Below, piece by piece: positions 1,834 through 42,262 of a DNA stretch of 42,262 nucleotides. The notes below the pieces were generated by a model that was not told the DNA's origin, ran no database searches, and worked only from the letters and a program-made list of their open reading frames with translations. Positions within the stretch are counted from its first letter, which is position 1. Each line of letters starts with the position of its first letter. The position numbers were made by a program, and so were the translations under genes. The stretch comes from a virus. Location: positions 1 through 42,262 of IMG/VR virus record IMGVR_UViG_3300042991_000229; one strand, given 5' to 3'.

Positions 1834-3126
1834 TTATTCTTTCCAAGGAACGTCATCCTCGGCGGTATCATTTTCAGCGTTTTCAAGCGACGGATCCTTC
1901 GAGAACCCTTTCTTGAGTTCTCCGCTTATCCGGATCGTCCGGCGATCCCAGCCGTCTTTCTGAAGGCAGTCCGAAATTCGCATTTGGCTGGTGCGGTCGA
2001 GTTTATCGATATGGCCGTGTAAACATTCCGTCCATATTTCCTGTGATGTAACCCGGATCCTGTCTTTACAGTAATTTTTGATTTCTTGTTGCCAAGCATC
2101 GTCTATTTCCCGGCTAGATTGCTCCGAATATGACATCGCGGATATTTCCCCTGTGAGGTATAATGGGGATTTTTCTTTATACGCTTTCCATGCTTCCGCC
2201 CAAAGTTGGTCTTTGTCGGCCAGAATCTTTCCGATATTGATGTCCCCGTTACAGAATACCGGCAGGAACCGGCGGTTTCCCGTTGAATCTGTCAAATATC
2301 CGCTGTTACTTGGGTTAACCGTCCCGATAAAAATGTTGCGCCGCGGGAATATCTGCGATCTGCGGCCATAAGGAAGACGTTGCTTGTCTTTGGTGATTGT
2401 GATAAAAGCCTTAAGGGATTCGATGTCTTTCTTTTTAAACACGGATAGTTCCGGGACCTCGATTATCCAAGCGCCTTGCATAGACTCGACCGTTTCCTTC
2501 GTCCTGTCGCTCAATGACATCTCAGTGAACCATTCCCCGCCAAGGGCTTTACAGGCTTCCGATTTCCCGATCCCCTGTTTGCCTTCAAGGATTAGCATAT
2601 AATCGTACTTGATCCCGGGTTTGTCGATTCTAGCGCAAGCGCCAACGAGCGTCATCTTGCCAACAAACCGGGTATACGCGTTATCTGCGGCGTTCATGTG
2701 GGTGCATAACCAGTTATCGATCCGGGGAGTGCCGTCCCATTTTATGCTGTTAAGGTAATCTTTGACGGGGTCGTACGAGTATTTTCCGGACACAAACGTC
2801 ACGGCATCGCTAAGGTTAGCCATTGAGAAATCAGCCTTATGCGCGATCGCGAGGTATTTGCGCAGGTTTATCACATCGGCATCTGTTAAAGGTTTTGGGT
2901 AGTCGCCAAGCCGTCCCCATGACGGCATCTTGACCAGTTCTGTCTGATGGGCGAAATCGTTGAACCTAAATAAGCCTACGAGTTCCGGGTTTGTCTGCAA
3001 AAGTATAGTGGCGTTGTTAAAGGTCGGGAGGATGATCGTGCCTGATTTGGTACTTTTAAAATCAAGCTGAATCGCTTCCAAATCTGATTCCTCTTTGAGT
3101 TTCTTCACTAAATTATCTGATTTCAT
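1834..3126 (-). CDS. VapE-family primase-helicase ATPase
   Basis: Virulence-associated protein E family (PF05272), an AAA-type replicative helicase found with primase domains in phages and islands. Residues 128-137 (SIKWDGTPRI) are the family signature. Walker A is GKQGIGKS at 182-189, Walker B is WIIEVPE near 220-226, sensor 1 is around FIGTVNPS (N271), and the arginine finger region is GNRRF at 283-287. At 430 residues it is the helicase part without a primase domain; the zinc domain is supplied by the next upstream gene, two bases away. Together they should open and prime the origin. Assignment is confident from motifs; its role as the main replicative helicase is inferred. Confidence 0.9.
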   Translation of the reverse strand: MKSDNLVKKLKEESDLEAIQLDFKSTKSGTIILPTFNNATILLQTNPELVGLFRFNDFAHQTELVKMPSWGRLGDYPKPLTDADVINLRKYLAIAHKADFSMANLSDAVTFVSGKYSYDPVKDYLNSIKWDGTPRIDNWLCTHMNAADNAYTRFVGKMTLVGACARIDKPGIKYDYMLILEGKQGIGKSEACKALGGEWFTEMSLSDRTKETVESMQGAWIIEVPELSVFKKKDIESLKAFITITKDKQRLPYGRRSQIFPRRNIFIGTVNPSNSGYLTDSTGNRRFLPVFCNGDINIGKILADKDQLWAEAWKAYKEKSPLYLTGEISAMSYSEQSSREIDDAWQQEIKNYCKDRIRVTSQEIWTECLHGHIDKLDRTSQMRISDCLQKDGWDRRTIRISGELKKGFSKDPSLENAENDTAEDDVPWKE

Positions 3127-3128
3127 AT

Positions 3129-3638
3129 TTATTTTCCCATGTATTTTAAGGCATCTTTAAAAGATAAATTATGGAGTAATTGTACGAACCTTATTGAATC
3201 GCCACCAGCATGACATCCAAAACAATAGAACGTATTAGTCTTATGGTAAATACAAAAAGATGCGGTTTTTTCTTTGTGGATTGGACAACAGCAGAACGTT
3301 CGTGTCGAGGATCTTTTAACTTTTTCAGGAGTAAATAATTCCAAGATAGGGAAAACTTTTGCGTATTCCATATTGGAATTATCATATTCCTTATTGGAAT
3401 ATATGAATTGATAGCGGCCTAACCGGTCTTTCTCGGCCAGAAGCTTATCCAGATAAAACGCTTGAACCATCATTATGCAAAAATCTTTTGTTGCCGGATC
3501 ATACGTTTTATTTTTATAGATATCCTTGATTCGCTGGGAGTATTGGCCTATGAGGCGGTTGTTCTCCCGGATTAATCTAGCTGATATTTGCTTTCCTTCC
3601 GGAAAGGCTTCTTTTATTTCTTTTAGGGTTAGGCTCAT
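3129..3638 (-). CDS. CHC2 zinc-finger primase fragment/protein
   Basis: The C-terminal third is a DnaG-type zinc-binding domain: C118-x2-H121 and C139-x2-C142 in the pattern CCPIHKEKTASF ... YCFGCHAGGDSIRF, followed by the usual helix NLSFKDALKYMG. No TOPRIM catalytic domain follows, so this 169-residue protein alone cannot be a complete primase. The N-terminal 110 residues are unrecognised. GGAG precedes the ATG at 3638. Directly upstream of the VapE-type helicase, it probably recognises template for priming, with VapE or a host enzyme supplying activity. Confidence 0.87.
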   Translation of the reverse strand: MSLTLKEIKEAFPEGKQISARLIRENNRLIGQYSQRIKDIYKNKTYDPATKDFCIMMVQAFYLDKLLAEKDRLGRYQFIYSNKEYDNSNMEYAKVFPILELFTPEKVKRSSTRTFCCCPIHKEKTASFCIYHKTNTFYCFGCHAGGDSIRFVQLLHNLSFKDALKYMGK

Positions 3639-3753
3639 TCCATCTCCGGGTTTTACAGTTGGGACAGCGTATGATCATTGTGGATCTCGGGATCCATTGA
3701 TGATCACATTTCTTACAAGTTAATAAGACCAACGACACGAACATTCTGTCCAT
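3577..3753 (-). CDS. Small zinc-ribbon protein (58 aa)
   Basis: ATG at 3753 follows the SSB stop codon by three bases and has GGGAGGA upstream. The protein contains two cysteine knuckles, LTCKKCDHQW and IRCPNCKTRRW, 14 residues apart, a zinc-ribbon layout seen in many small archaeal and phage proteins with the C-x2-C-x-H-x-W-x-P-R pattern. The tail is basic (PKRNKRSLSGRK). The 3' end overlaps the primase gene by 62 bases. A nucleic-acid-binding or regulatory role is likely by family, but the target is unknown. Confidence 0.7.
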   Translation of the reverse strand: MDRMFVSLVLLTCKKCDHQWIPRSTMIIRCPNCKTRRWNEPNPKRNKRSLSGRKANIS

Positions 3754-3756
3754 TAC

Positions 3757-4272
3757 CTATTCCTCCCAAGGAGTTTCAGACTTTTGTTCAACGACATATC
3801 CTTCTTCTTTCGTGAAACCACAGCTTTCAGCTGAAGCTCCGCCCTTAAGCTCGATTATCTGGACACCGCGGATGTATTTCGTCAGGCCTTTTGATCCATC
3901 AACGTCAAACTCTTTTAACGTAAACGCTACTCGCACACGGGATCCCCAGCCGACTTCTGCCTTTTCAACAGCATTGTTCTGGGAATCGAATAGTGCGATA
4001 GGATAGCTTGAAGTGAAATTGATTAGGATCTTTCCAGTAGCCGCTAGCTCCCCGGACTCATTCTTTTGCTTATCGGCCTTAACGAGCTTAGTATATTTCG
4101 GGTAAGACGATTCCGCGACCGCTTGGTTTAACTCATCCATGAACTTTTTAACGGCTTCTTCTGCCGGATCCAAAACTAAAGCAAGCCCATACTTGCCTTT
4201 AGCATCCGGGGTGCTGATTTGTGGGAATTTGACTGTCCCGATTGGGGTTGTTAATTTGTTCGCCATCTTCAT
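3757..4272 (-). CDS. Single-stranded DNA-binding protein, gp2.5/Enc34-like
   Basis: Matches the DUF2815/Enc34-type ssDNA-binding family: the N-terminal strand pattern TPIGTVKFPQISTPDAKGKYG, LALVLDP, GKILINF, GWGSRVRVAFTL and the TKYIRGVQIIEL strand form an OB-fold layout. The acidic tail ending ETPWEE is typical of phage SSBs, used to recruit replication partners. AAGGAG precedes the ATG at 4272. It lies between the exonuclease and primase genes, as expected for a recombination/replication cassette. The precise family name is from pattern memory, so moderate to high confidence. Confidence 0.8.
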   Translation of the reverse strand: MKMANKLTTPIGTVKFPQISTPDAKGKYGLALVLDPAEEAVKKFMDELNQAVAESSYPKYTKLVKADKQKNESGELAATGKILINFTSSYPIALFDSQNNAVEKAEVGWGSRVRVAFTLKEFDVDGSKGLTKYIRGVQIIELKGGASAESCGFTKEEGYVVEQKSETPWEE

Positions 4273-7195: not shown

Positions 7196-7390
7196 CTATA
7201 ACCGCACCACCCTGCCGTACTGGTTGACATACCTACCGTGCATCCTGCTGTTTCGGAGTATGCCGTCATTCTTTATCTCCAGCCAGTCGTTATCACTCTT
7301 TGGCCTATGCGTTATCGTATGCGGATGTTTTAGCTTTTTTGTTAGATACTTCAACGCTTCTTTGATTTGCTTATCTTTCATTTCTACCAT
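7196..7390 (-). CDS. Hypothetical basic protein (64 aa)
   Basis: A basic protein starting MVEMKDKQIKEALKYLTKKL, then HPHTITHRPKSDNDW and a C-terminal HGRYVNQYGRVVRL. The start at 7390 could instead be the second ATG three codons later. The gene overlaps the end of the MT-A70 remnant by 20 bases. No known domain is apparent; basic charge suggests nucleic-acid contact. Confidence 0.55.
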   Translation of the reverse strand: MVEMKDKQIKEALKYLTKKLKHPHTITHRPKSDNDWLEIKNDGILRNSRMHGRYVNQYGRVVRL

Positions 7391-7595
7391 CTTTACATTT
7401 AGTAATTAGTTTGTTAAGGCTTTCTTTTATATCAACACCATCTATATCATAGCCTATTGAATCCCAACCTTCTGTCTTTTTCCGTGCGAAAAGTTCTATG
7501 CGGGGAAGATTTCCTACAAGCTCAACAATTCTTTTCTTTGCTTTATCCCTGTAACTCCAAGGTGGATCCGCGTAAATTATTTTATATTTCTTCAC
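7371..7595 (-). pseudogene. MT-A70-type adenine methyltransferase with internal deletion
   Basis: A GTG at 7595 with AGGA upstream gives KKYKIIYADPPWSYRDK, the N-terminal strand and catalytic DPPW motif (residues 10-13) of MT-A70/Dam-like phage adenine methyltransferases. It is fused directly to KKRIVELVGNLPRIELFAR, which in complete relatives is the C-terminal motif about 100 residues later. The middle of the domain, including part of the SAM-binding fold, is missing, yet the frame stays open. It is therefore an in-frame internal deletion and probably inactive. The tail (EGWDSIGYDIDG onwards) is intact. Its GTG overlaps the stop of the upstream gene. A minimal peptide retained for another role cannot be excluded. 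Confidence 0.75.
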
Positions 7596-7887
7596 CTTTA
7601 CGATCCTTTTTATCTTTATACTTCTCCATAACTTCAGCCCTGAACTCATAAAAGGCCATGGTTAAATCATGTTTATACGGATGGCAGTAATGCCCGAAAT
7701 TATACTTGTTTAACCGCATCCCACAATGCTTGCATAATCGAACGTCTTCTTCTTCTCTGCACGGTATGGGATTTTTCCCGAGCCAAACTTCCCCCCAAGA
7801 CCAATCCGCCGTAGCATATCTTCCCGGAAACTCTTTCTTTACCAAGCAACGCTCTTTCGGTTTCGTTAACCCATTCTCTGGTGTCAT
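7582..7887 (-). CDS. Hypothetical zinc-binding protein (101 aa)
   Basis: ATG at 7887 follows GAAGGG at a good distance. Internal CKHCGMRLNKYNFGHYCHPY gives C-x2-C and C-H, a likely single zinc site, and the C-terminus is a Lys/Asp/Glu-rich helix. An Asp/Trp-rich patch (ADWSWGEVW) precedes the zinc site. The 3' end overlaps the methyltransferase remnant by 14 bases. The function is unknown. Confidence 0.6.
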   Translation of the reverse strand: MTPENGLTKPKERCLVKKEFPGRYATADWSWGEVWLGKNPIPCREEEDVRLCKHCGMRLNKYNFGHYCHPYKHDLTMAFYEFRAEVMEKYKDKKDRKGEEI

Positions 7888-7901
7888 TATCTACCCTTCG
7901 A

Positions 7902-7997
7902 TCAGTAATCATCTGTTGACCTCACTGTTCCCCGCTTGGCGATTAACTCATTCGTCCAGTAATCCCTAGGAGTACTAGGAGTAACAAGGGATTTCAT
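7902..7997 (-). CDS. Possible 31-aa ORF
   Basis: ATG at 7997 opens a 31-residue frame starting MKSLVTPSTPRDYWTNELIA. It fills an otherwise empty stretch between two minus-strand genes, 19 bases after one stop and 14 before the next start. No RBS is visible; a longer version from TTG at 8087 would overlap the upstream gene. It could be a fragment of a larger ancestral gene. Confidence 0.3.
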   Translation of the reverse strand: MKSLVTPSTPRDYWTNELIAKRGTVRSTDDY

Positions 7998-8016
7998 CGT
8001 AGAGCGCCAATTACTG

Positions 8017-8220
8017 TTATGGGCGACTGTTTTCCTTCGCTCGTATCTGCTGTTTAGTTTCTTTTGCAGGGATCCCGATTTCTTCAATTGTAATCCTCAC
8101 CTGTTTATCTGTCCTAAATGATCTCCTATCCATAATAACAGGAAGCTTTATAACGTGCCAATCCTCGTAACTAACGTCCCAATCTTTATCAACCCAAGCT
8201 AAGATTGTTCTCTTGATCAT
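8017..8220 (-). CDS. Hypothetical protein (67 aa)
   Basis: Starts with an ATGA overlap on the stop of the glycosyltransferase-like gene, indicating coupled translation. The sequence MIKRTILAWVDKDWDVSYED looks like a beta-rich small domain, with a basic C-terminus (KETKQQIRAKENSRP). No family recognised. Its coupling suggests a role linked to the membrane protein upstream, but this is only context. Confidence 0.6.
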   Translation of the reverse strand: MIKRTILAWVDKDWDVSYEDWHVIKLPVIMDRRSFRTDKQVRITIEEIGIPAKETKQQIRAKENSRP

Positions 8221-9599
8221 TTTTTCGGGCCGAAATGCTTTGCGTTCTTTTGCATATCAACCAACAAATTCTTTAACCATTGAAGCTGTTCCCGGGACCC
8301 TTTAATATTCGGTTTTTCTCTTTCGGTAGCGTATTTTTCCATAAGTTCAATAGTACGTTCGTTCGCTTTAATGCCTTCCTCAATCTTACCGATCATGATG
8401 AGATAAGCCGTAAAGTTCATCCAAACAACCCAGCTTTCCGGCTCTAATAAAACAGCTTTTCTTATGTGAGAGGAAACAAGGTTAATCTCCCAGTGTGGAT
8501 ATTCGATCAGCTTTTTCTTTGATATGTAATATTGGGACAATGCGCTATACGCTCCGCCGCGTTCCGGGTTCATCAAAACTTCGTTTTCTAGCAAGGTCTT
8601 TTGGTCTTTCCAGTTTGGAATAACCGTCCAAGCCTTATAAATGTAAAAACCAACGATCATAAACAGGATGTCAGGATGATTTGCTAAGCCAGTACCTAAG
8701 ACAACACATAGGCCAATCATGGGGAGGTAAAGGTACCTTTGGGCGAACGGCTGGCCTAAGACTTTAAACTGGCTGTGTAAGCCCATCAAAACAAAGAACC
8801 AAATTGCCCCAACAGGGTGAATCATAAACGAAACAAACGCTGTGGCGAGGAATATAGCAAGCGAAATCCAAAACTCCCGGTTACACGCATGGTAATAATC
8901 CCAGTTTGCCCGGGATTCCCGGATCTTCTCGCACCATTTCCCAAAGAAATAGACCTTATCCGGGAAAAAGAAATGCTCAATGTACCGTGCCATAACCTTT
9001 GTCATAAGGAATATTCTGCGCCATTCCCAATGCTGATCTTCGACTTGTTTTCCCTTAATAATCTCTACCCGTGTAGCAAGCCCGGTCTTCCATCGTTTAC
9101 GGCCCATGAAATATATTAGCGGAATGAAAGTCATCAATCCCCAAAAGTGGCCGAATAAAAAGATAAAAGGGAAACTCATGGAATCAACGGTCGAGTTTAA
9201 CGCGCAATAAAAGAATATCATCCCGGCCGGGACACCTATAAGTAATGGCATCTTCACTAAAAAGAAATACGCGATTAATGTGAAGTATGCGGTTGTCGCA
9301 TAATAATTTCCCGTAACCCAAGCGACTCCCCATGCACTCATGGGATGAACCGCAAATAATAATGATGCTTGCCAGCCCCAAAGCAAATACACGACGAGAG
9401 AATTGACAATGTGCATCCCGATCATGAATAATCGGTAATACTCCGACGGGCGAGTATCAAAAAACTTTGGATGCTGGCTTTCCTTCGGGACGTTCCAAAG
9501 GTATTCTTCCCGACGGACGTAATCATCTATGACGTAATTGTATTTGAGGGATTTGATATAAAGGGCGAGGATGATTAAAGCGATAATAATGAAATTCAT
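8217..9599 (-). CDS. TMTC-like GT-C membrane glycosyltransferase with TPR tail
   Basis: A 460-residue polytopic protein. Features of the TMTC/TPR-type GT-C family are visible in order: Asp-Asp (D25-D26, YVIDDY) just after the first TM helix, YYRLFMIGMHIVNSLVVYLL (55-73), LLFAVHPMSAWGVAWVTG (80-97; HP at 85-86), roughly nine more hydrophobic segments, FAQRYLYLPMIGL near 290-302, WKDQKTLLENEVLMNPERG near 335-353, then TPR-like helices to the end. Cellular relatives transfer sugars from lipid carriers to the outer face of the membrane, often to proteins. The catalytic Asp pair is retained. It lies in the early operon between the HNH gene and a 67-residue partner. Activity and substrate are inferred; a pure membrane anchor is the alternative. 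Confidence 0.75.
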   Translation of the reverse strand: MNFIIIALIILALYIKSLKYNYVIDDYVRREEYLWNVPKESQHPKFFDTRPSEYYRLFMIGMHIVNSLVVYLLWGWQASLLFAVHPMSAWGVAWVTGNYYATTAYFTLIAYFFLVKMPLLIGVPAGMIFFYCALNSTVDSMSFPFIFLFGHFWGLMTFIPLIYFMGRKRWKTGLATRVEIIKGKQVEDQHWEWRRIFLMTKVMARYIEHFFFPDKVYFFGKWCEKIRESRANWDYYHACNREFWISLAIFLATAFVSFMIHPVGAIWFFVLMGLHSQFKVLGQPFAQRYLYLPMIGLCVVLGTGLANHPDILFMIVGFYIYKAWTVIPNWKDQKTLLENEVLMNPERGGAYSALSQYYISKKKLIEYPHWEINLVSSHIRKAVLLEPESWVVWMNFTAYLIMIGKIEEGIKANERTIELMEKYATEREKPNIKGSREQLQWLKNLLVDMQKNAKHFGPKK

Positions 9600-9603
9600 A
9601 TTT

Positions 9604-10098
9604 CTATATTCTCCACGTTTTATTCTTCTTTATATTATTTATAGACCAATATGTTACATTATATTTTTTTGCTATGTCGTAACTTGAAATATCTTTTTTT
9701 AACATAACTCTTATATCCCTCACATCTTTAATAGATAATTTTGTTTTTCCATTAAGATGTAAAATAATATGGTTGGAATTTGTCATTTTTTTTAGGTTAC
9801 ATGGCCTGTTATCTCCCGGGCTTCTATTCACATGATGTATAATATCGCTTTTTCTTAATTTGACTTTATGGTACTTTTCATATACCCATCTATGTAAAGC
9901 ATAAGAATTGTATCCAAGTGGCTTCTTCCTAATATTTATTGTTCCATATTTTTTTTGCTTTAAGCTTTTCCTTAATGTTGTTTTATTTTTACAACTCTTG
10001 CAAATAGCTTTTGTTATTAAAGAGTTTTTAGATATAGATTTGTATTCTACTAAATATATCTTGCATCCACATTTTTTGCAGTTAAAATTATTAATCAT
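9604..10098 (-). CDS. HNH homing endonuclease 2 with DNA-binding tail
   Basis: An N-terminal zinc pair (CKKCGC at 7-12, CKSC at 33-36) precedes YALHRWVYEKYH and the HNH core DIIHHVNRSPGDNRPCNL (H88, H89, N91, D96, N97, N101) with H110. Residues 122-164 form a helix-turn-helix like those that give homing enzymes their specificity (SSYDIAKKYNVTYWSI). Base composition is more AT-rich than neighbours. It has its own promoter (10122-10150), unlike the genes around it, which fits a mobile insertion into the operon between VRR-NUC and the glycosyltransferase-like gene. Confidence 0.9.
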   Translation of the reverse strand: MINNFNCKKCGCKIYLVEYKSISKNSLITKAICKSCKNKTTLRKSLKQKKYGTINIRKKPLGYNSYALHRWVYEKYHKVKLRKSDIIHHVNRSPGDNRPCNLKKMTNSNHIILHLNGKTKLSIKDVRDIRVMLKKDISSYDIAKKYNVTYWSINNIKKNKTWRI

Positions 10099-10150: not shown

Positions 10151-10432
10151 TTAACATATCTCTTTTAACAATTCCTTGACATTCTCGACGGAGAAAACAA
10201 CTTCAGCAATAACTCCCTGAGAATTTATTTTCCTTATTACACATTCTTGTATCCTTGAAACCCGACCACCCGGACGTTTGGCTTCAATGAAAGCGACCTT
10301 CTTATTATGGATGAAAATGATGTCAGGGATACCACAATTTGTGGTTTCGGTTAGCTTGTATACTACCGCTTGAGGATATGTCTTTCGTAGGTATTTAAGG
10401 ATCTTTGCTTGGACGTCTTTTTCTAGTGCCAT
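10151..10432 (-). CDS. VRR-NUC nuclease
   Basis: A stand-alone VRR-NUC domain (93 residues) of the PD-(D/E)XK superfamily: E4 in the first helix, NCGIPDIIFIHNKKVAFIEAKRPGG with D37 and E50-A-K52, then a helix starting VSRIQE. Phage versions act as structure-specific nucleases, often cutting branched DNA, and commonly neighbour a SNF2-like helicase. This gene starts inside the zinc-protein gene (10 bases overlap) two genes downstream of such a helicase, which matches that pairing. Confidence 0.92.
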   Translation of the reverse strand: MALEKDVQAKILKYLRKTYPQAVVYKLTETTNCGIPDIIFIHNKKVAFIEAKRPGGRVSRIQECVIRKINSQGVIAEVVFSVENVKELLKEIC

Positions 10433-12520: not shown

Positions 12521-12699
12521 TTCCACTCAATAGGCTCTTTTGTGACAAGCCTCAAAATCACGTTAACGAAAGCCAAGATCCCGGCTTGGATTTCAATATT
12601 AACAATATCCTTTCCCGTAACAGCCTGAACGATCATCGCGACCATTGCTACCACATTGACCCATAATGTTTTACTCTTCCATAGTGATTTACCGCCCAT
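12517..12699 (-). CDS. Holin-like small membrane protein
   Basis: Two hydrophobic helices, LWVNVVAMVAMIVQAVTG and IEIQAGILAFVNVILRLV, with a charged N-terminus (MGGKSLWKSK) and the C-terminal signature TKEPIEWK, match the class II-like holin group that begins W-x-S-K-T. At 60 residues the size fits. Holins form membrane lesions at the end of infection. AAAGGAGG precedes the ATG at 12699. Location in a late cassette of membrane genes supports the call. Confidence 0.8.
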   Translation of the reverse strand: MGGKSLWKSKTLWVNVVAMVAMIVQAVTGKDIVNIEIQAGILAFVNVILRLVTKEPIEWK

Positions 12700-12710
12700 A
12701 AAGACCTCCT

Positions 12711-13172
12711 TTATACCATCATTATTGGGATGAAACCGATATAAAAGCCAATCATGGTCTCTTCCCCTCGTGCTGGTATTGGGTTTTGTGTCCCTAACAT
12801 TATGCTTCCAACAATGTTAAGGGCTACATGGATTAAAAATAAAAGCCACTGTCCCGTGACGATGGCTATTGGTATGGCCGCTATTGACGTCGCGATCCCA
12901 TAGATAGCCCTTTTCTTAAGCTTGACTCCAAACGAGTCCGCCCCATATCCTAAACACAAAGCCGCTGACAACAAAGGACCAAAGGAGATTAACACTAAAG
13001 AAAACGTTCCCATAAGTAAACTATAACCGCAGATAGCAAGAGTGAGAATAGCCGGAGCCAGAAATCTTCGCTTCCATTTCCCATTCATTCCTCCTAGCCC
13101 ATAAAGCAAGGCGAATAATGCCACTACGATTATCCGGCTGAAATAAATGTACTGCAAAGTTATTTCATTCAT
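12711..13172 (-). CDS. Polytopic membrane protein (153 aa)
   Basis: About five hydrophobic segments are visible, including IIVVALFALLYGLGG, LAPAILTLAICGYSLLM, LVLISFGPLLSAALCLG, IYGIATSIAAIPIAIV and IHVALNIVGSIML, ending IGFIPIMMV. The pattern LYGLGGMNGKWKRRFLAPA recurs in phage lysis-region membrane proteins. It probably contributes to membrane disruption or is an accessory to the holin, but no enzymatic motif is seen. It lies 12 bases upstream of the holin gene. Confidence 0.7.
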   Translation of the reverse strand: MNEITLQYIYFSRIIVVALFALLYGLGGMNGKWKRRFLAPAILTLAICGYSLLMGTFSLVLISFGPLLSAALCLGYGADSFGVKLKKRAIYGIATSIAAIPIAIVTGQWLLFLIHVALNIVGSIMLGTQNPIPARGEETMIGFYIGFIPIMMV

Positions 13173-14102: not shown

Positions 14103-17030
14103 TTATTCTCCTAGTTTGTCTGAAACATACTCAACCCTGATATCTATAATATAAGGTTCTGCCGTCGGGTTATTTCCACCATCTAACGCTACCCTAGCAC
14201 CGTTGAACGCTACCAAATCTTGTGCAGATAAAGACGCTCCCGATATTGTCCCTTCTGTTTTAACAACCGTATTTGCTGTCGCCGGTATATTAACATCTCC
14301 AAAATCAACTGTACCTGATGACCCTCCAGTAATAACCTCACCCACCGCCACTGCTCTCCATGCGGATGACCATTGTGCTTCACCGCTATTCGTTGCATAC
14401 GCTTCATTAATCGCCCAATAAACCTCAATTGTAATATCCGTTCCGCTTGCATAATCAGTAGGTATCTCAAAAGATGTGTGCATATCATCGCCTATGCTGA
14501 ACTCATACGTAGGGAATATGTCATGCAGCGCTGCTGTCGGACCGCTTGCGCCGGGATTGAAGTCGCTAAGCGGGACCCTGAACTCTTTGTTTACCTGGGC
14601 AGTCCCGACTAAAGATAATGTTCCGTCAGAGGCAAACGCGGCATAATTGGTAGTGCTATCACCTAACCTTGTTGTTCCTAACACATCAAGTTTCGTTGCT
14701 GGAGCAGATGTTCCTATCCCAACATTTCCCTCCATATAAACCTTTGAATTAGCAACATATAATCCCCAGGCGTTTGCGGCAGTTTCGCTGTCTCCAACGG
14801 TAATATCATTAATGTAAACTCCAATCGAGTTAGCAGTAGCATCTAAATCATCAATAGCAATTCCCCTGACAGTATCCTGCCCATCCCAGTCGTTTAGATA
14901 AAGGCCGTAAGATGTTCCACCGGTAAACGCATCAAAATCACTTGCTTTTAATAAGGTTAAATTAACAAAACCGTAAGTAGCGTCTGCATCAGTAGCGTCA
15001 TTAAATACCAGTCCTTCTGAACTAGCTACATTATCCCTTGCTCCGCTTTCCATCGACGGGAATGTGATTGCTGTGCCGCGATAAGAACCTAACAGTCCTT
15101 TATTTTTTATCGCGACAGGCCATATCTCGCATCCAGTCGCTAACCCTATTTCCGTATCATAACTAGAATCTTCACCTATCTGCATACGACCGAATGAGGC
15201 TCCTATAAAAGAGTTGATCTTTGCTTTTTTAGTAGACCCAATCAACCTACCTTGCCCCTGATAGAAAGCGTAAACCGCGTTAGCATAATCATCTTGGATT
15301 AAAACATCAGTATTAAAAGCCGAACTTCTTGTCGCAAGAGTCGGAGTTCCAGCGCTTTCCCAATCTCTACCCGATTGAATCTGCAATCCAGCATAAAAAC
15401 CATTCGCATAATCGACCACATACGGAGTTAGATGTTTAGCTTCAATACTTAATCCAGTAAACTGCCTGTTAGAAGCACTATCTCCGGTCCAGTTCGCTGT
15501 ATAATAATTCATATAATTTCCATACTCTGTCCAACCTGCATCATTCGGAGCTACTGTGCTTGAGGTGTCTATGTTAAGTCGTCTAATCATGCTACTCTTG
15601 CTAGTTGCGGCATCTCCAATATTAACTTTCTTAGCAAAGTAAGCATCGTCCAGATCATACAATCCCCAGTTATTAGCGGCATAAACAGAAGAAAGATCGG
15701 CGATATGAATACCATAGTGAGTCCCTGAAACTCTTGGTTGCTCTCCGATATTATTCAATATCCTTAAATTATAAGCGTTAGTGAATTGGCTAGTCGCACC
15801 ACTTTCATTTGTAACTTTTAGTACAATCGATGACCCTTCTGTTACATTGCCAGCACCAGCACCATAGATCGTTGTCCTGAACTCAGCACCTCTTAAATCT
15901 GACGCTACTCCTGTCCCGGTATGTTCTGCTTGGGCATAATACGCCATCAATGACCCGAGGAAGTTATCAGTAGACCCAGCCGTATTAATATAATTAACCC
16001 CTCCAATACCTAATATAGTGTTATTTGTGAATGTACTGCTTGTTATTCCTAGTATCTGAGAAATAGCAAAGATAGCGTCGCTGCTAGTTGCCGCGATTGG
16101 ATTATGATAAATGTCTATCCTCGCATCACCATTTGGCGGCTGGTTCCCAAGATGAAGTTGTCCACCTAAACTTGAGTTACCTGTTCCTGTTAAGTTAATA
16201 TCCCCTAACCCGGTATAATCACCGTCCGCGTCAATGTTTCCAGTAGCGTTTATATCTCCGCTCGTAGTTATATCTCCTGTAAGCGATTCTAAAAGGATTG
16301 ACTGCGGATAACTAGCAGTCAAGGCCGGAGGGTCGTCATAGCCACCTGTAATAGTCCAACCAGTCGGGTTGCCGATGTAGGTATAATCGCTTGTTGCCCC
16401 GTTTGCGGTAAAGATATTCTGTTCTTCTGCGTCTATTGTATATCCAGGCACACCTGCTAACTGAGCAAGAACGTTTGCCCTGTTATCTGTCCTGTAATAG
16501 AACGTAGCATAGTTTCCGTATCCTCCGCCTAAATCAGCATTTATCAGCATACAACCAATATTGTTTATCCCGTCTGGAGGTACTGCCATGCTAGTTAAAT
16601 CTGTGCCTCCGCCCCCCACGGGAGTAAGAAAATAGAAATCATCATTTGTTGGATTAGGATAATATCCAGCGGCGAATAACCCTACCGCCGTTAAGTCGTA
16701 AACATTCCCGCCAAATGTAAACGGAGTATTGGTTAAGTTCCAAGATATACCACCTATTGAATTAAGCAGTTTTATATCTGCGATAGTATCTAAACGGCCA
16801 GTCATTTCAGGGTTTTGAGATCCATCGCGTTTAACAAAAATATCTCCCGTGCCGGTAAGAATGTTTATTGTCGCGTCGCCATTGTCAGTCAAAGAACCGT
16901 TAGGGAATATTACTTTATAAGGATATGTCTGCGGAGTTCCGTCTTCTTCATTCCATTCAACGGGAGGGAATTGAGCAAAGGCCGATACAGCCATTAAAGA
17001 TATTGCTATGAATAATATTAATTTACGCAT
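14103..17030 (-). CDS. Fibre-like protein with Sec signal peptide (975 aa)
   Basis: Start chosen at ATG 17030, which overlaps the upstream stop by eight bases and gives MRKLILFIAISLMAVSAFAQ, a typical signal peptide; a longer frame would hide it. The mature protein is beta-rich and repetitive, with recurring Y-G-L/I-Y/H-I and N-N-W-G-L-Y motifs, and near residue 770 the GNVGIGTSAPATKLDVLG signature common in phage fibres and bacterial surface proteins, followed by a C-terminal beta domain. It is encoded among tail genes but is predicted to be exported, which is unusual for a virion protein. Either it is a surface adhesin made by infected cells, or the hydrophobic N-terminus is a virion anchor. 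Confidence 0.8.
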   Translation of the reverse strand: MRKLILFIAISLMAVSAFAQFPPVEWNEEDGTPQTYPYKVIFPNGSLTDNGDATINILTGTGDIFVKRDGSQNPEMTGRLDTIADIKLLNSIGGISWNLTNTPFTFGGNVYDLTAVGLFAAGYYPNPTNDDFYFLTPVGGGGTDLTSMAVPPDGINNIGCMLINADLGGGYGNYATFYYRTDNRANVLAQLAGVPGYTIDAEEQNIFTANGATSDYTYIGNPTGWTITGGYDDPPALTASYPQSILLESLTGDITTSGDINATGNIDADGDYTGLGDINLTGTGNSSLGGQLHLGNQPPNGDARIDIYHNPIAATSSDAIFAISQILGITSSTFTNNTILGIGGVNYINTAGSTDNFLGSLMAYYAQAEHTGTGVASDLRGAEFRTTIYGAGAGNVTEGSSIVLKVTNESGATSQFTNAYNLRILNNIGEQPRVSGTHYGIHIADLSSVYAANNWGLYDLDDAYFAKKVNIGDAATSKSSMIRRLNIDTSSTVAPNDAGWTEYGNYMNYYTANWTGDSASNRQFTGLSIEAKHLTPYVVDYANGFYAGLQIQSGRDWESAGTPTLATRSSAFNTDVLIQDDYANAVYAFYQGQGRLIGSTKKAKINSFIGASFGRMQIGEDSSYDTEIGLATGCEIWPVAIKNKGLLGSYRGTAITFPSMESGARDNVASSEGLVFNDATDADATYGFVNLTLLKASDFDAFTGGTSYGLYLNDWDGQDTVRGIAIDDLDATANSIGVYINDITVGDSETAANAWGLYVANSKVYMEGNVGIGTSAPATKLDVLGTTRLGDSTTNYAAFASDGTLSLVGTAQVNKEFRVPLSDFNPGASGPTAALHDIFPTYEFSIGDDMHTSFEIPTDYASGTDITIEVYWAINEAYATNSGEAQWSSAWRAVAVGEVITGGSSGTVDFGDVNIPATANTVVKTEGTISGASLSAQDLVAFNGARVALDGGNNPTAEPYIIDIRVEYVSDKLGE

Positions 17031-42143: not shown

Positions 42144-42262
42144 TAAAATAAAAAATAGCGACGAGAATATAGAAAATAAAAAATAGCGACGAGAATATAG
42201 AAAATAAAAAATAGCGACGAGAATATAGAAAATAAAAAATAGCGACGAGAATATAGAAAATA
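42144..42262. repeat. 28-bp tandem repeat array, right end
   Basis: A degenerate partial unit up to 42161 is followed by full units at 42162, 42190 and 42218 and a 17-base partial unit at 42246. The last 101 bases equal the first 101 bases of the window. This gives a terminal overlap but within a repeat, so the junction cannot be fixed by sequence. Confidence 0.95.

Follow-up and report, generated by a model that had tools for sequence, protein, structure and literature searches.

A shortened, diverged TMTC-like membrane protein gene in uncultured viruses, possibly encoding a lytic-phase surface glycosyltransferase

The gene at 8217-9599 (minus strand) in the genome of an uncultured bacterial virus codes for a shortened, diverged relative of the TMTC membrane enzymes, which attach sugars to proteins, and it is carried by at least 13 further uncultured viral contigs. 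We put at roughly even odds (probability about 0.5) the reading that it is a surface glycosyltransferase used in the lytic phase with a donor made by the host. The protein is TMTC-like in sequence and probably in mechanism; it is not a proven TMTC enzyme.

The stretch of DNA analysed (the window) covers an IMG/VR virus record from end to end (42,262 bp). Its terminase is 52% identical to that of phiV10-like phages, and it encodes T7-like internal virion proteins as well as helicase, primase-like, SSB, and exonuclease genes. The two ends (1-183 and 42145-42262) consist of a 28-bp tandem repeat (6.5 and 4.2 copies), and there is an exact 101-bp direct terminal repeat, though the record is listed as linear; this could reflect a circular genome, a terminally repeated genome, or a limit of the assembly. 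The match of a 92-aa ORF (7371-7649) to MT-A70-type DNA methyltransferases is confined to their end, as if the gene had been broken or split, and a 12-bp repeat (AATTTTGACCCC, 14 copies at 593-762) lies within a short ORF whose match to a tail-lysin type is weak. The TMTC-like gene stands after SNF2 helicase, VRR-NUC, and HNH genes, all on the same strand:

8017-8220, minus strand: 67-aa ORF with a 4-base overlap with the end of the TMTC-like gene (sequence; no family match)
8217-9599, minus strand: TMTC-like membrane protein gene, 460 aa (ORF; 14 homologues; hhalign match to the TMTC-like protein L042)
9604-10098, minus strand: HNH endonuclease-like gene directly upstream (PHROG 59, E 8e-12)
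9611-9614, minus strand: GGAG ribosome-binding site of the TMTC-like gene (sequence)
10151-10432, minus strand: VRR-NUC-like endonuclease gene (PHROG 93, E 1.9e-19; tblastn to the contig L034, E 1e-15)

The gene is real: it has 460 codons from an ATG start, a ribosome-binding site, homologues, and the mark of purifying selection. The first-pass annotation, made from the letters alone, had coupled it to the 67-aa ORF. The overlap is genuine, but no relative of the gene has a counterpart of that ORF, and the proposed partnership was dropped.

A degenerate DNA pattern encoding HP-x5-VAWVxG, followed by growing alignments, was run on 2.9 million viral contigs (metagenomic, and of uncertain completeness) and yielded the homologues. 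The pattern matches the window once and 100 shuffles not at all, and it recovers homologues, so the landmarks go beyond chance. There are 14 homologous ORFs on 13 uncultured viral contigs, 27-50% identical to the window protein; the closest full-length ones are 39-44% identical. One contig (L033) carries tandem TMTC-like genes (7752-9083 and 9071-9588), of which the first is 34% and the second, cut by the contig end, 47% identical to the window protein. Sixteen positions are invariant in the 15 sequences: D25, D26, R30, P38, G75, W76, F82, P86, W94, T96, G97, Y99, Y100, S136, T137, and G154. The predicted outward loops are the best conserved; mean entropy is lowest of all segments at residues 93-100 (0.31 bits), 1.02 at residues 277-293, and highest, at 2.06, in the least conserved TPR part. 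For the one pair where the ratio is computable, dN is 0.34 and dS 2.87 (dN/dS about 0.12), and the gene is under purifying selection.

Single-protein searches of Pfam, PHROGs, NCBIfam, and PDB sequences returned nothing useful in the membrane part, and the phage TMTC-like family has no match in PHROGs or annotated phage records. The window protein matched nothing by tblastn in INPHARED and PLSDB, nor did the L033 protein in phage records or a bacterial TMTC-like consensus, which served as a query alone; the profile comparison below uses the real sequences L041 and L042. Pattern scans of GTDB genomes, which sense near-exact short stretches only and are hence shallow, revealed no bacterial relative. 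In the literature searched, we found no work on TMTC-like proteins of phages.

Profile comparison supports homology of the gene product to TMTC-like proteins, as the first reading of the sequence had proposed. With hhalign, two TMTC-like proteins (L042 and L041) are matched at 98.5-99.1% probability; for the family profile (A4) against L042 the value is 98.5% (E 3.2e-15), over 364 collinear columns and the full length, and restricting the comparison to the membrane part leaves it at 97.2% (E 4e-11). L042, which carries Pfam PMT_2 and TPR domains above their cut-offs, is a protein of an integrase-bearing viral contig, not of a named bacterium. Since hhalign E-values apply to single comparisons, decoys were run: reversed L042 and five shuffles each gave at most 1% probability, as did the Escherichia coli controls ArnT (0.2%), YfdI, LacY, RfbX, WbbH, and CynX. 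The TPR helices proposed to follow the membrane part are borne out by a match of the C-terminus to TPR proteins in the PDB (profile A2, E 2.4e-17).

Structure prediction points the same way with less force. AlphaFold2 supplied with the A4 family alignment gave a model with pLDDT 86.9 and pTM 0.87 (the single sequence, at pLDDT 44, was not usable). Foldseek of this model against the PDB gave no hit below E 1e-3; the best non-TPR matches are the GT-C enzymes of solved structure PglB (5ogl) and ArnT (5f15 and 5ezm), with probability 0.92-0.99 and weak values of E (0.05-0.11) and TM-score (0.34-0.38). The outcome that the first-pass annotation would have taken as a refutation, a predicted structure lacking a GT-C fold, did not arise; such a fold may be present, with matches whose E-values are not significant. 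Human TMTCs are also most similar to PglB and ArnT (PMC7801869).

The landmarks named in the first-pass annotation are present in its order: D25-D26 after the first transmembrane helix, H85-P86-x5-V92-A93-W94-V95-x-G97, F285-A-Q-R288-Y289-L-Y291-L-P, and W330-K331...N344-P345, followed by the TPR helices. The phage protein shares this order, with the DD loop, the HP...W and R-Y motifs, and the TPR tail, with TMTC1-4 and prokaryotic TMTC-like proteins; it differs from them in being shorter (460 aa), in having few TPR helices, and in its shortened TM6/TM7 region. L042, the closest sequence relative found outside the phage family and likewise on a viral contig, has 518 aa and, unlike the phage family, keeps the M4 Lys and a TM7-like segment. 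Its gene (2604-4160 of its contig, minus strand) is flanked by tail-type ORFs on one side and by a repressor-like ORF and an integrase on the other, where lysogenic-conversion genes usually sit. The protein was compared with motifs M1-M7 as defined for human TMTCs (PMC7801869, Table 4), and the following features were placed on the window:

9522-9527, minus strand: Asp25-Asp26, first outward loop, motif M1 (invariant, 15 of 15)
9300-9347, minus strand: H85-P86...W94-V-T-G-N-Y-Y100, third transmembrane helix and second outward loop (invariant residues, lowest entropy)
9189-9194, minus strand: Ser136-Thr137 in place of the M4 Lys-Glu (invariant, 15 of 15; aligned to Ser-Lys of L042)
8967-9017, minus strand: helix 195-211, in the place of the juxtamembrane helix of the DUF1736 loop (AlphaFold2 helix, hhalign register; topology uncertain)
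8733-8741, minus strand: Gln287-Arg288-Tyr289, motif M7, E/D-R-x-x-Y (Arg-Tyr in 13 of 13 covering sequences)
8331-8609, minus strand: C-terminal TPR-like helices, residues 331-423 (TPR profile match; helix pairs in the model)

The Asp-Asp pair of M1, whose absence from close relatives would have counted against the assignment, is thus kept throughout. M7 (ERxxY, fifth outward loop) is kept as Arg-Tyr, with Gln, Glu, Asp, or Ala before it and the Tyr of R-x-x-Y in most members. Only Tyr-Arg (55-56) of M2 (SHKSYRP, first outward loop) is left in most members, and the stretch after it is shorter. M3 (RxD, second outward loop) is replaced by N98 (Gly in two sequences) and the invariant Y100; M4, KE(T/Q)xxT, by the invariant S136-T137 followed by V, I, or F; M5 (DW, DUF1736 loop) by FF; and M6 (PxxP, TM9) by HSQ-type residues. 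The window has no match to PF08409. Published TMTC models assign the M4 Lys to contact with the donor phosphate and the M4 Glu, with the M5 Asp, to metal binding. Because these residues are not kept, the donor site of the phage protein, read from the alignment, would have to be different or dead, and the catalytic activity first assigned to the gene is not supported by the motifs, given the replaced Lys/Glu of M4 and Arg/Asp of M3.

Residues 139-166 may form one or two helices, and across residues 139-240 the path through the membrane is uncertain. TMTCs have 11 transmembrane helices with the TPR part outside, and on this kinship the phage TPR tail is probably on the outer side; an alternative topology that lacks TM7 and leaves the TPR part inside is compatible with hydropathy and may apply instead.

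The same motif losses bear on a rival explanation that survives better than the others, although we think it rather unlikely: that the protein is a catalytically dead TMTC/GT-C derivative, which binds polyprenyl-phosphate or the substrate of a host GT-C enzyme and so disturbs surface glycosylation, or which serves as a membrane-anchored TPR scaffold. Such a derivative might display both the shortening of the TM6/TM7 region and the replacement, in M3, M4, and M5, of residues that contact the donor or the metal. Yet conservation is highest in the would-be active-site loops, with DD, YY, ST, and RY invariant, and the canonical TMTC-like L042, which has Lys-Pro at M4, likewise does without the Glu.

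The genomic setting raises other alternatives. The first-pass annotation had placed the gene in an early operon, which is correct for the window, but the usual site in the family is the late head module, where the gene is found in 11 of the 13 relatives. Eight of these (L027, L028, L029, L031, L032, L033, L038, and L039) have upstream terminase and head-protein genes related to those of L026/L032, and three (L035, L036, and L037) have a more distant head protein upstream. A small gene of about 130-160 codons follows the head protein in all 11 and is the sole gene before the TMTC-like gene in nine; L029 and L031 have endonuclease-like ORFs there as well. The small gene was considered as a cement protein, on the model of the slot in phage DSL-LC04, and this was rejected (similarity not significant, E 0.016). 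In L040 the TMTC-like gene comes after ORFs that are terminase- and portal-like by position alone. The proposed survey of related contigs for the same operon found the gene on 13 viral contigs, but the VRR-NUC setting of the window only in L034 (the SNF2 helicase relatives, at 24-28% identity only, are uninformative for synteny). The window and L034 form a supported clade (99/97), so one relocation accounts for both; the early position of the window gene is an exception within the family.

This arrangement suggests a head-module protein for virion making or release, for example one that glycosylates or anchors a virion or lysis component. The major head protein precedes the gene in most relatives, and divergence of the gene correlates with head-protein divergence (r 0.66, Mantel p 0.004), though it is faster. 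We nevertheless consider such a role unlikely: heads are assembled in the cytoplasm whereas the active sites of GT-C enzymes face outward, none of the six annotated phages examined, whose head proteins are related, has the gene in the corresponding slot, and in the window and L034 the gene stands apart from head genes.

HNH/endonuclease VII-like genes adjoin the TMTC-like gene, or lie one gene off, in the window (9604-10098), L029 (9420-9968), and L031 (9007-9432). The GC content of the window HNH gene (26%, versus 41% for the window) hints at a recent arrival, perhaps with homing-assisted movement. Such neighbours invite the explanation that the TMTC-like gene is a passenger of bacterial origin, kept by its neighbourhood of homing endonuclease genes and with no phage-specific task. 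This seems quite improbable in view of the dN/dS value, the retention of the same invariant residues over deep divergence, and the lack of a bacterial relative in the shallow search. Weakest of all is the idea that the protein is no TMTC/GT-C relative and that a membrane protein with TPR helices resembles one by chance, which is very hard to credit: the membrane part has no Pfam, NCBIfam, PHROG, or PDB sequence hit and the Foldseek E-values are weak, but L042 scores 117 with hhalign against at most 23 for six other multi-pass proteins and six decoys.

Phages are known to modify O-antigen receptors with GtrABC cassettes (reviewed in PMC11436027). The window protein and the GtrC/YfdI type have in common that they are multi-pass membrane proteins carried by phages, with a presumed action on a lipid-linked sugar outside the cytoplasm (PMC11436027); the window protein differs from a Gtr cassette in its TPR tail and in standing in head or replication blocks, and hhalign finds no match to YfdI (0.1-0.2%). 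The window record has no match to PF00535 (GT2, GtrB) or PF00589 (integrase), so Gtr-type lysogenic conversion by this gene is unlikely, and lytic-phase use with a host-made donor is the simpler reading. No integrase was found in the relatives' contigs either (L029 searched through L020, the same contig; L037 left out). Among the relatives searched (again without L037), a GT2 gene occurs only in the contig of L028 (G003), where GT2-type matches downstream of the TMTC-like gene (12667-12930 and 15143-15421) mark a possible donor-making partner.

According to the lytic-phase glycosyltransferase reading, the gene encodes a compact multi-pass inner-membrane protein with its Asp-Asp, T-G-N-Y-Y, Ser-Thr, and Arg-Tyr loops outward and a short TPR tail. 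By analogy with the GT-C family, its sugar would come from a polyprenyl-phosphate donor made by the host and would be transferred, in the course of lytic infection, to a surface protein or glycan of the host that faces outward; the TPR part would hold this acceptor. Unproductive adsorption to the changed surface would then be avoided, to the benefit of the infected cell or the released progeny. Where the gene lies in its usual setting, the protein would be a late product alongside those of the head genes; in the window lineage, a move to the replication operon would bring earlier expression. Receptor masking by the product is speculative; late action that frees progeny from the spent cell fits the head-module setting, and superinfection exclusion fits that of the window better. 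Three points count against the surface-glycosyltransferase reading: a gene for receptor masking would not be expected to be linked so tightly to head genes; the M3 Arg/Asp, M4 Lys/Glu, M5 DW, and M6 PxxP are not kept; and the Foldseek comparison of the predicted model remains below significance. A fuller version of it, offered tentatively and with some doubt, is that the family is a distinct, phage-only TMTC-like branch with a rebuilt donor site (Ser-Thr for Lys-Glu), residing stably in the late head module of lytic phages and using a lipid-linked sugar of the host to remodel the outside of the infected cell so that progeny are not trapped.

The stable place beside capsid genes raises the question of why a relative of membrane sugar transferases travels with the head module. 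The activity of TMTC enzymes themselves is hard to show, and the phage protein, if active, would be a compact model for them. It would also represent a single-gene, lytic-phase form of phage glycosylation of the host surface, distinct from Gtr cassettes, and the spread of the gene among viral contigs suggests a so far undescribed viral route to host-surface modification during infection.
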